In this document: in pieces, positions 36,013 to 64,000 of the stretch
How positions within the stretch are numbered: position 1 is the first letter of the stretch
How the letters are laid out: every line of letters begins with the position of its first letter
Source: Bacteroidales bacterium
GTDB lineage: Bacteria > Bacteroidota > Bacteroidia > Bacteroidales > UBA932
DNA: 64,000 nucleotides
Direction: 5' to 3'
Assembly (NCBI GenBank): GCA_017399905.1
Contig: JAFQAR010000040.1
Span: forward strand, 35,680 to 99,679
Position numbers and translations under genes: made by a program
Notes under the pieces: generated by a model
Databases searched by the model: none
Seen by the model: only the letters and a program-made list of their open reading frames with translations
What the model was told of the DNA's origin: nothing

Positions 36013-36207
36013 TGATTTACGCCATTACGGAAGCCTGCCCCCGGGCCTCACATGTTTGACTTGACTACGGCAGGTCTTCGGACTTATCTCCACTTCACCG
36101 CGCCTTCTCACAGCAGACGCTGCAATGGCAGTTTGCGGGAGTGTTGGCAAGATTTACCGCTGCGGGCACAGTTCCGGATTCGCACCGGATTCCCTTACTC
36201 CGTAATC
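36013..36207 (-). ncRNA. Cobalamin riboswitch leader of btuB
   Basis: The minus strand shows the B12-element core: GGAATCCGGTGCGAATCCGGAACTGT-type P2/P3 region followed by GCCCGCAGCGGTAA, a GCCATTG variant of the B12 box within CTGCCATTGCAG, and AAGTCCGAAGACCTGCC near the 3' side. Aptamer about 36060-36205; the rest, up to the ATG, should be the expression platform. Adenosyl- or other cobalamins would lower btuB-btuC expression. Confidence 0.93.
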
Positions 36208-36213
36208 CCGATG

Positions 36214-36221
36214 CAAAGATA
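36214..36221 (-). promoter_or_regulatory. Promoter -7 box for the riboswitch-btuB-btuC unit
   Basis: TATCTTTG on the minus strand (perfect TAnnTTTG). Transcription would start near 36207, exactly where the riboswitch begins. The box lies just beyond the T-run of the upstream terminator. Confidence 0.65.
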
Positions 36222-61767: not shown

Positions 61768-62925
61768 TTGGCCAGGCATACGAAATATTCCTTCTGTCTC
61801 ATACTGATCATGACAGCAGCGATGCTTTTCCGCACAGAACGGGCATCGGCACAGGAGATACTCATGCCTGAATCATGGCGCAGAGCCCTGTATGACGTTC
61901 CACCCCTCTACAAGGCCGACACGCTTACGATATGCTTCATGGGAGACATCATGATGCATACGAGACAGATCGAGACGGCCCGGCAGAAAGACGGGACTTA
62001 CGACTTCAGTTCATACTTCAAGCTCATAAAGGACAGGATCTCATCGGCAGACCTCGCTGTCGCCAACATGGAGTTCACTCTTGCAGGGGAACCGTACAGC
62101 GGCTATCCCTGCTTCTCCGCTCCGGACGGGTTCGAAGATTATCTGGCAGACACCGGATTTGACATATTTCTGGCAGCAAACAACCATATCTTCGACAAGG
62201 GAAGCAAAGGTGCTGCAAGGACAATAGAAGCATACAGGAAGCTGGAAAAGGATAAAGGGATAAGATTCGCGGGAATAGCTTCCGACGAGGAGATGCTGGA
62301 AAGCGGCACCCCTCTGACAATCATACGCAAAGGCATAAGGCTTTCGTTCATAAACTTCACCTACGGAACCAATCTCGGAGGACAGGAGCAATGGCCGCGG
62401 ACAAATTATGCAAGAGAAAAGGAGAAGCTCGGAACGGCATTTGCGAGAGCAGACAGCGCAGGTGCCGACTTCACGATAGTCCTGCCGCATTGGGGACCGG
62501 AATACCGGCTCATCCATTCACTGGAACAGGAAGAGACAGCATCCTGGCTGGCAAGAAACGGAGCGGACTTCATAATAGGAGCTCACCCTCATGTGGTGCA
62601 GGACACGATGACGATAGAGGGAGTGCCTGTCGTCTACTCGCTGGGGAACGCCGTATCTAACATGAGTGCAGCCAACACGCAGCTTGAACTGATGGTCACG
62701 CTACGTATCATAAGGCATGAAAACGGCGACCTGACCGCGGAGCCTCTGGAATACACATGGCTATGGTGCTCGAGACCTGGAGGATTCAATAGTTCGTACA
62801 CTGTCATTCCCGTCGAAGAATACATCGGAAGGGAAGACGAATGGCAAGACCAGCGGGACTATCGCAAGATGACCGACACATACAGACATGTTAAAGAAAC
62901 AACAAGAATCACAGATACTGAATGA
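61768..62925 (+). CDS. CapA family (PGA_cap) metallophosphatase-fold protein
   Basis: A 385-residue protein. A TTG start at 61768 gives a proper signal peptide (first residues, cleavage near ASAQ); the next in-frame ATG, at 61810, would cut the signal peptide. CapA-type motifs: FMGDIMMHTRQI, FTLAGEPYSGYPCFSAP, ANNHIFDKGSKGA, PHWGPEY and GAHPHVVQ. Family members include the B. anthracis poly-gamma-glutamate capsule protein CapA and many proteins of unproven function. Overlaps the phoH start by 4 bases (ATGA). Confidence 0.87.
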   Translation: MARHTKYSFCLILIMTAAMLFRTERASAQEILMPESWRRALYDVPPLYKADTLTICFMGDIMMHTRQIETARQKDGTYDFSSYFKLIKDRISSADLAVANMEFTLAGEPYSGYPCFSAPDGFEDYLADTGFDIFLAANNHIFDKGSKGAARTIEAYRKLEKDKGIRFAGIASDEEMLESGTPLTIIRKGIRLSFINFTYGTNLGGQEQWPRTNYAREKEKLGTAFARADSAGADFTIVLPHWGPEYRLIHSLEQEETASWLARNGADFIIGAHPHVVQDTMTIEGVPVVYSLGNAVSNMSAANTQLELMVTLRIIRHENGDLTAEPLEYTWLWCSRPGGFNSSYTVIPVEEYIGREDEWQDQRDYRKMTDTYRHVKETTRITDTE

Positions 62926-63887
62926 GCAGACAATCAATCAAGCTTGAAGCAATCGACCCCGTTGAAATCTACGGACCCGGAAACAGGAATCTTGAGGCTC
63001 TGTGCAGCTATTTTCCCGATCTTAAGGTCGCAGCAAGAGGCAATGAAGTAATACTCGACGGAAAGGACACCGATGTCGAGGAATTCACCGTAAAGCTGAA
63101 GATGCTGATAGAAAGAAGACAGCACAAGATGAACCTCACCCCATATGACGTGGAAGACCTCTTCGACGGCGAATCCTCCCCCGACAGATTCAGACTGAGC
63201 GGAGATTCCGTAATTGTCCACGGCAATGACGGAAAGCCTGTAAAGGCAAGGAACAGGACCCAGCAGGAGATGGTCAAGGCATATTTCGAGAACGACCTGA
63301 TATTTGCCGTAGGCCCCGCAGGAACAGGCAAGACATATATAGCCATCGCTCTTGCCGTAAGGGCGCTTAAGAACCGAGAGGTAAAAAGGATCATACTTAC
63401 AAGGCCGGCAGTGGAAGCGGGAGAGCGGCTCGGCTTCCTGCCGGGAGACCTCAAGGACAAGCTGGATCCGTATCTTCAGCCGTTATATGATGCACTCGGA
63501 GACATGATTCCCGCAAAAAGGCTTCAGGAGTTCATGGCGGAAGGAACCATACAGATCGCGCCTCTCGCCTACATGAGGGGAAGGACTCTCGACAGGGCAT
63601 GCGTCATTCTCGACGAAGCGCAGAACACTAACCTCGGACAGCTGAAGATGTTCCTGACACGAATGGGCAGCGACGCCAAATTCATCGTGACCGGTGACGC
63701 AAGCCAGATCGACCTTCCGAACAAGAAGGATTCCGGCCTGCTCAGAGGAATAGAACTCACACGGAACATCAAGGGCATAAGCACCATCCGGTTCAGAAAC
63801 GAGGACATAGTCCGACACCCGCTTGTATCCAAGATAGTGAAGGCCTTCGAAAAGGCGGAGAATCGAGTAGGAGGTAAACGAAAGTAA
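62922..63887 (+). CDS. phoH: PhoH family ATPase, C-terminus supplied by a group II intron
   Basis: A 321-residue cytoplasmic P-loop protein with an N-terminal KH-like region (about 10-70), Walker A GPAGTGKT at 131-138, the RPAVEAGERLGFLPGD block and Walker B VILDEAQN at about 230-240. PhoH proteins bind ATP and RNA. The last codons (NRVGGKRK and stop) lie inside the 3' end of an antisense group II intron beginning near 63862, so the native C-terminal tail is probably missing or displaced. The core ATPase is intact. Confidence 0.93.
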   Translation: MSRQSIKLEAIDPVEIYGPGNRNLEALCSYFPDLKVAARGNEVILDGKDTDVEEFTVKLKMLIERRQHKMNLTPYDVEDLFDGESSPDRFRLSGDSVIVHGNDGKPVKARNRTQQEMVKAYFENDLIFAVGPAGTGKTYIAIALAVRALKNREVKRIILTRPAVEAGERLGFLPGDLKDKLDPYLQPLYDALGDMIPAKRLQEFMAEGTIQIAPLAYMRGRTLDRACVILDEAQNTNLGQLKMFLTRMGSDAKFIVTGDASQIDLPNKKDSGLLRGIELTRNIKGISTIRFRNEDIVRHPLVSKIVKAFEKAENRVGGKRK

Positions 63888-64000
63888 TGGAGTTTATCTC
63901 CTACTTTCGTTTACCGACCTCTCACACCACCGTACATGCGGGTCCGCATACGGCGGTTCCTTACATCCGATGATACTTTTCGTAGTATCCCATCAATGAC
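63862..64000 (-). mobile_element. Group II intron, 3' end only (domains V and VI), antisense to phoH; continues past the right edge
   Basis: Read on the minus strand, the segment has the conserved end of a bacterial group II intron. Domain V is a hairpin at 63926-63957 with the typical two-base bulge and GUACGGUGGU 3' side. It is followed by GUGAGAGG, a long domain-VI-like hairpin (arms about 63873-63888 and 63900-63915) and the 3' terminus CCTACTCGAT near 63862. The end of the intron-encoded reverse transcriptase should lie at about 63961-64000, but two frames are open (one stops at 63961-63963, another runs through domain V), so no protein is called. Exon/intron edge is estimated to within a base or two. 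Confidence 0.8.

Follow-up and report, generated by a model that had tools for sequence, protein, structure and literature searches.

A class IIC group II intron at the terminator behind phoH in a Bacteroidales genome, and a conserved in-frame UGA in the reverse transcriptase of its relatives

The window analysed here, 64,000 nucleotides of a Bacteroidales genome (GCA_017399905.1, contig JAFQAR010000040.1, referred to as C32), ends with phoH, whose reading frame (62922-63887) continues into the 3' end of a group II intron on the opposite strand (Table 1). The window stops at position 64000 because C32, which is 99679 long, ends inside the intron. Codon 314 of phoH is split A|AT at the junction, codons 315-321 and the stop TAA (63885-63887) are intron sequence, and the present PhoH protein of 321 residues ends ...EKAENRVGGKRK*. 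The intron 3' end itself reads CCTACTCGAT and matches the full Rfam model RF00029 (model positions 1-77) at 63958-63862 (-) with 45.8 bits and an E-value of 8.3e-6, the cut-off being 40 bits. A sequence-only reading of this DNA had proposed that an antisense intron 3' end overlaps phoH and supplies its last codons and stop, and both proposals are borne out by the Rfam match and by further copies of the element described below. It is also right, as that reading stated, that an antisense group II intron cannot splice out of the phoH mRNA. Elsewhere in the window, at 36052-36219 (-), lies a cobalamin riboswitch (RF00174, 92.9 bits).

Table 1. Features at the phoH-intron junction and at the loci compared with it
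Feature	Location	Strand	Description and basis
phoH, native part	62922..63861	+	codons 1-313 and first base of codon 314; ORF
phoH, codons from the intron	63862..63887	+	rest of codon 314 (N), RVGGKRK, stop TAA
group IIC intron 3' end	63862..64000	-	139 nt to contig end; RF00029
domain V hairpin	63926..63958	-	RF00029 alignment
domain VI	63862..63925	-	paired foot GAGAGG/CCU-A-CUC and extra 14-bp distal stem; sequence, RF00029 alignment
hairpin GCCTT-TTCG-AAGGC	63843..63856	-	3' exon; weak, -5.4 kcal/mol
missing flank	contig C52		intron 5' end, strong terminator and TPR gene of 444 codons; Pfam
clade D loci	L273 / L280 and L276		IMG/VR contigs 3300006155_000008 and 3300006151_000358

The terminal 140-143 bp of the contig recur on two further contigs of the same genome, C44 and C5, at 99-100% identity and with unrelated flanks, which places the boundary at about 63861/63862; the last 140 nt of the C5 copy are identical to those of the window. 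On C44 an aminotransferase class IV gene (Pfam), which we read as ilvE-like, stops 17 bp before the intron, and the intron is again antisense to the gene, while C5 extends 465 bases deeper into the intron and covers the end of a reverse transcriptase (RT). The intron end is therefore that of a repeated mobile element, and the presence of three near-identical 3' ends in one genome would count as an indirect sign of retromobility only. An IS110-type transposase gene (L003, 226-1221 (-); Pfam) adjoins the C5 copy.

The element is a class IIC group II intron. It has domains V and VI, it is inserted directly behind a rho-independent terminator on its own strand, and its RT is of class C, with the Pfam domains RVT_1 and GIIM only and no endonuclease domain. 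This class was read from matches to solved structures rather than from a tree including reference classes, and on the homologue of genome G072, the intron's own genome holding parts of the RT: 7uim, which we take to be a IIC enzyme, scored 395 bits, the GsI-IIC RT (6ar1) 385 and LtrA 141. One usual feature of the class, an uninterrupted RT frame, was not found, since a single TGA stands in the frame of the C5 copy and of 14 clade sequences. Domain V has CGC where, in the naming and register that we assume, the AGC triad is usual. By our reading, the bulged A in the foot of domain VI is likely the branch point. The arms of the extra stem lie at 63902-63915 and 63873-63886, and domain VI matches itself on the opposite strand over 43 bp at 84%. 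Between 63873 and 63915 the 14-bp extra stem contains a 13-bp perfect inverted repeat (GTAAACGAAAGTA). The related introns L067 and L056 carry an extra domain VI stem of different length and sequence.

The 5' portion of L067, a related intron that is complete and spans about 1.9 kb, served as query against the genome and found three intron 5' ends, on contigs C56, C35 and C52. We identify C52 as the missing flank because its TPR gene is convergent with phoH in 16/16 relatives tested among the 29 whose phoH loci were fetched. When the flanks on C32 and C52 are joined, they read ...GAG AAT AAA AAA GAA GAG CAG GCG TGA in the sense of phoH; the native gene therefore had 320 codons, with its stop inside the terminator hairpin, and its product ended ...EKAENKKEEQA*. 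PhoH of G007, which is 92% identical, ends AENEKEQA*, a tail homologous to the restored one. The swap thus exchanges, after the N, the native KKEEQA-stop for RVGGKRK-stop, and none of the 29 fetched phoH loci (0/29) encodes a protein ending NRVGGKRK. Genome G032 contains near-identical introns, and the phoH locus found there is without one. The RT sequence and the intron 5' end that the sequence-only reading had expected beyond the window are thus present in the same genome, and the original phoH tail was recovered through C52.

The position and orientation of the intron follow from the terminator. Class IIC introns are described as inserting directly behind rho-independent terminators (PMC4424553 and PMC8919778). 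All three 5' exons of this genome consist of a hairpin followed by TTTAT and fold alone at -21.8 to -24.1 kcal/mol, and with L067 and L079 all five folded 5' junctions (5/5) are hairpins of -18.3 to -24.1 kcal/mol. The hairpin GCCTT-TTCG-AAGGC, previously put forward as a possible target feature, does exist in the 3' exon, but at -5.4 kcal/mol against these values we reject it in that role. Nor is the site an exception for class C, as had been suggested; the hairpin that was targeted is the terminator shared by the two genes, which lies on C52, in the 5' exon, and this makes the site normal for class IIC. This bidirectional terminator serves both phoH (+) and the TPR gene (-) and overlaps the last phoH codons and stop. 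What the TPR gene has as a T-tract is, in phoH, an A-rich run within those codons, so that an insertion behind the T-tract necessarily falls inside phoH. The intron is antisense to phoH because the terminator works in both directions. We believe that a group IIC retro-intron inserted by reverse splicing directly behind the minus-strand T-tract. The insertion falls in codon 314, parts phoH from its terminator and gives it an intron-encoded tail and stop; introns of the same kind have entered this genome at two or more further places. The insertion with its boundaries, the terminator and the native tail are demonstrated here at the level of sequence.

Related intron 3' ends were found in 27/200 genus genomes. 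With hits set aside that stopped short of this end or repeated the same 3' exon, 32 distinct 3' junctions were read. An antisense ORF of at least 100 codons stops within 150 bases of the junction in 21 of the 32, a tally that has no random-site control, and within 50 bases in 16. These figures are in line with sites common to convergent genes. In G122 and G198 the antisense gene needs the first intron base to complete its stop codon. On the antisense strand each of the three frames meets a stop within 26 bases of the intron end, so that damage is limited wherever the intron lands.

The same property, ending interrupted genes cleanly, could be taken to favour the view that the intron end was selected to supply PhoH with a new tail, which we nevertheless hold to be very unlikely. 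The Pfam PhoH domain covers residues 107-310 of the window protein (292 bits), and PhoH proteins of the 29 relatives align up to about residue 310-320, beyond which their tails vary freely. In a second species phoH likewise has a related intron at its 3' end (L056, G075:C4:1-1587), but the native stop TAA lies exactly at the junction and is kept, so that only one of the two phoH insertions seen, that in the window, adds codons. The same phoH terminator is hence used recurrently, in G075 and in the window. The earlier claim of a fixed change in a conserved ATPase does not carry over to function: a functional change is not indicated because the change amounts to six residues in a hypervariable tail beyond the PhoH domain. 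The intron-encoded tail is probably neutral, and its acquisition is an ordinary outcome, expected of a class IIC insertion.

While the altered gene end is ordinary for this class, the in-frame UGA of the intron RT, which is conserved across species, is unusual. It was read in the C5 copy, the window's own copy being cut by the contig end before the RT, and the frame there runs FLGHSFYVASGGV-TGA-RLRIHAKS. By Pfam, RVT_1 ends at residue 320 and GIIM begins at 340, and the UGA sits in the gap between them. An RT search of the genus gave a match in 34/400 genomes, among them 13 RTs whose match to the query has exactly one stop, which is TGA. In 11 of these 13 (clades A and B) the TGA stands where intact homologues mostly have Cys; in clade C (G776 and G078) it directly follows FY and the Cys is kept. 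G181 encodes a complete RT without a stop, and G652 has a stop-free linker and a TAG reported elsewhere in its RT match. The match in G029 does not cover the linker and so stands outside the linker counts, the fragments in G785, G116 and G067, with several stops or lower identity, were not placed, and the remaining matches, of lower identity or short, were left out of the counts. No TAA, TAG or second TGA occurs in the matched stretches of 16 RT frames, several of them partial.

A scan of 84,980 species genomes with short patterns from clade A/B sequences kept 80 loci of 176 relatives. A single TGA followed by AGG was present in 14/80, and 66/80 had no stop in the linker; five of the latter have one elsewhere (TAG, TAA, TAA, TAG and TGA-ATG). 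At the codon in question these 66 homologues have Cys in 60 and Tyr in 6, the six Tyr loci all being from Phocaeicola coprocola. Searching 393 genomes across the order gave three full-length RTs at 57-60% identity without a stop, and single TGAs in a few lower-identity RTs, at other places where inspected (G429, G528). One named host of the UGA is Candidatus Cryptobacteroides intestinigallinarum; the rest are genomes assembled from rumen, horse and gut metagenomes. By title, 13/14 of the UGA records bearing names are MAGs and the other is an uncultured isolate assembly. Sequencing error is unlikely, as the 14 distinct contexts come from different samples.

After removal of duplicates (L184, L153, L154, L159, L160 and L161), 14 distinct clade A/B sequences remained, and the codon following TGA is AGG in all of them (14/14). 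The codon before the TGA varies (ATA, ATG, CTA, GGA, GTT, TTA), as does the one behind TGA-AGG (CTA, CTG, CTT, TTG), and in the 90 columns examined six consecutive invariant ones occur at TGAAGG and nowhere else. AGG makes up 72/5577 of the other codons in these RT frames, and among 18 nearby positions with one amino acid a single codon is used in 3, all of them Lys.

A scan of viral contigs gave 13 loci and with them a further clade, D, on two contigs 98% alike, which we count as one lineage, the two IMG/VR contigs probably being from related samples. Here the sequence is FNT-TGA-AGA-GGA-AAG, with the TGA at yet another, third codon position of the same linker. The longer contig (95.7 kb) carries a phage terminase gene (Pfam); three neighbouring genes on it have TAA as their stop and TGG as their Trp codon. 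On the other contig a second stop (TAG) lies in an apparent tandem duplication. A search for the host by flank matched 4/295 order genomes, at best 65% over 764 bases, and yielded none. Two more scans of viral contigs, one queried with clade D and one with clade C, found 4 and 8 loci respectively, of which the clade D contigs were inspected for stops. A tree of 43 hand-picked RTs unites the 14 clade A/B sequences (99/96) and sets clade C apart as a clade of its own, grouped with intact RTs (88/83). The UGA positions of A/B, C and D fall within about ten codons and each is followed by AGR, but they occupy different linker codons; the UGA therefore apparently arose at least three times.

The codons past the UGA evolve under purifying selection, in the same frame as those before it. 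Over the first 24 codons, clades A and B differ with pS 0.85, which is saturated, and pN 0.21, and within subclades dN/dS is 0.16, 0.06 and 0.11; for the whole part downstream of the UGA it is 0.11-0.23 within subclades. These values come from Nei-Gojobori counting on few sequences, the pairs of which share ancestry. The stop is thus fixed in 14/14 sequences beyond synonymous saturation. Comparative sequence data establish in this way both the conservation of the UGA and the purifying selection beyond it.

These observations bear directly on the idea that UGA-bearing RTs are dead and that their introns owe their mobility to an intact RT acting in trans from another place in the cell. About 30% of intron RTs are interrupted or incomplete in the data set of PMC8919778, degraded copies also exist here (G785, G116, G652), and repeat collapse in draft genomes could hide an intact copy. 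Decay, however, predicts all three stops at many places, and what is seen is one TGA at one codon in 14/14 sequences, with purifying selection on both sides of it. Moreover, G072, which is 98% complete and has three intron 3' ends, contains one RT match, and that match has the UGA. We therefore regard dead RTs as quite unlikely.

Termination at the UGA would give an RT without its thumb, because the UGA lies between RVT_1 and GIIM. The position of the stop exactly between the two domains, each of which alone matches its own Pfam model, together with a Met codon 26 codons on that is present in 14/14, is what would be expected if the RT ended there and the thumb/maturase part started anew as a second polypeptide just past the UGA. 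The 24 codons that separate the UGA from this Met nevertheless evolve as coding sequence, which favours readthrough, and no in-frame ATG, GTG or TTG common to all 14 lies between the two. A split protein is consequently unlikely in our view. Restart of the ATGA type was dropped, as the start would be in another frame.

The Cys found at this codon in most homologues without the UGA would fit selenocysteine, but this reading is extremely improbable. SelB exceeded the cut-off in 0/61 genus genomes (completeness 90% or more in 25), against 2/14 in the control, and tRNA-Sec in 0/8; several of the genomes searched are incomplete. All eight gave sub-threshold tRNA-Sec matches, the best with 42.9 bits against a cut-off of 47, and nine of the best that were inspected (9/9) are tRNA-Ser or tRNA-Leu. 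Clade C, in addition, keeps its Cys and has the UGA at a different codon. As a SECIS-like element we considered a 9-bp stem past the UGA in the C5 copy (z -3.0), which is not conserved.

A general reassignment of UGA to sense in the host is just as improbable, and no point in support of this was found. UGA ends 14/41 window ORFs of at least 200 aa, none of them followed by AGG, and the phoH genes of several relatives end in TGA. The tRNA-Trp anticodon is CCA in the four genomes in which ARAGORN gave a gene, a fifth locus giving none. By our own reading all four genes have G27-U43, a G-U top pair. A tRNA-Trp with a weakened anticodon stem, as described in PMC13092985, served as a lead only, and the pair is not diagnostic of a decoder since G181, with its intact RT, has it too. 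No decoding tRNA for the UGA was identified among the tRNA genes read. TadA-type editing was set aside on what we take to be its motif.

Programmed readthrough is, we infer, the best reading of the conserved RT stop, and full-length RT would most likely arise by occasional readthrough at UGA-AGG by a near-cognate tRNA. A stimulating 3' RNA structure was not found: there is no conserved structure downstream of the UGA (consensus fold -3.4 kcal/mol), and single-sequence folds have z between -3.0 and 0.5. Readthrough of this kind would likely serve, by analogy with retroviruses and insertion sequences, to keep the dosage of full-length RT and intron mobility low. On balance we favour the account in which programmed readthrough at UGA-AGG (UGA-AGR), placed in the linker of palm and thumb, controls the RT of class IIC introns in Candidatus Cryptobacteroides and its relatives, a device that would have arisen at least three times at different linker codons. 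For the locus as a whole, we are rather confident in a joint explanation, in which a usual IIC insertion at a shared terminator accounts for phoH and the UGA of the RT is most likely read through.

If the readthrough reading is true, no earlier case of translational recoding in a group II intron is known, as far as our searches show. Among the papers listed in the literature searched, which mostly lacked subscription papers, none dealt with readthrough or a conserved UGA in the RT of such an intron, and the novelty is therefore provisional. Retroviruses and insertion sequences dose their own enzyme by recoding, and a bacterial ribozyme retroelement would then do likewise with its RT. Pipelines that call stop-containing intron RTs incomplete would also be setting aside active elements. 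UGA-AGG is also a compact bacterial context for UGA that lends itself to testing and for which no stimulating structure is known. The phoH case, for its part, illustrates how a class IIC intron alters a coding end where a bidirectional terminator overlaps the stop codon.

Finally, the element can be compared with known systems. Like the group IIC introns B.h.I1 and GsI-IIC, it is short (about 1.9 kb here), has domains V and VI, lies behind a rho-independent terminator and encodes an RT and maturase without endonuclease; unlike them, it has a conserved UGA in the RT frame and a long extra domain VI stem, and is antisense to phoH. The conserved in-frame UGA in a bacterial gene recalls RF2 frameshifting and selenocysteine, but here there is no change of frame, neither SelB nor tRNA-Sec was found in the genomes searched, and the context is UGA-AGG. 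Also comparable are the UAG of murine leukaemia virus gag-pol (PMC5009743) and the UGA of Candida Tca2 gag-pol (PMC2194720), where one in-frame stop likewise precedes an indispensable retroelement domain, a 3' pseudoknot is or may be present, and the stop splits gag from pol. In the present introns, by contrast, the element is a bacterial ribozyme retroelement, in which the stop splits the RT itself between palm and thumb and is accompanied by no conserved 3' structure.
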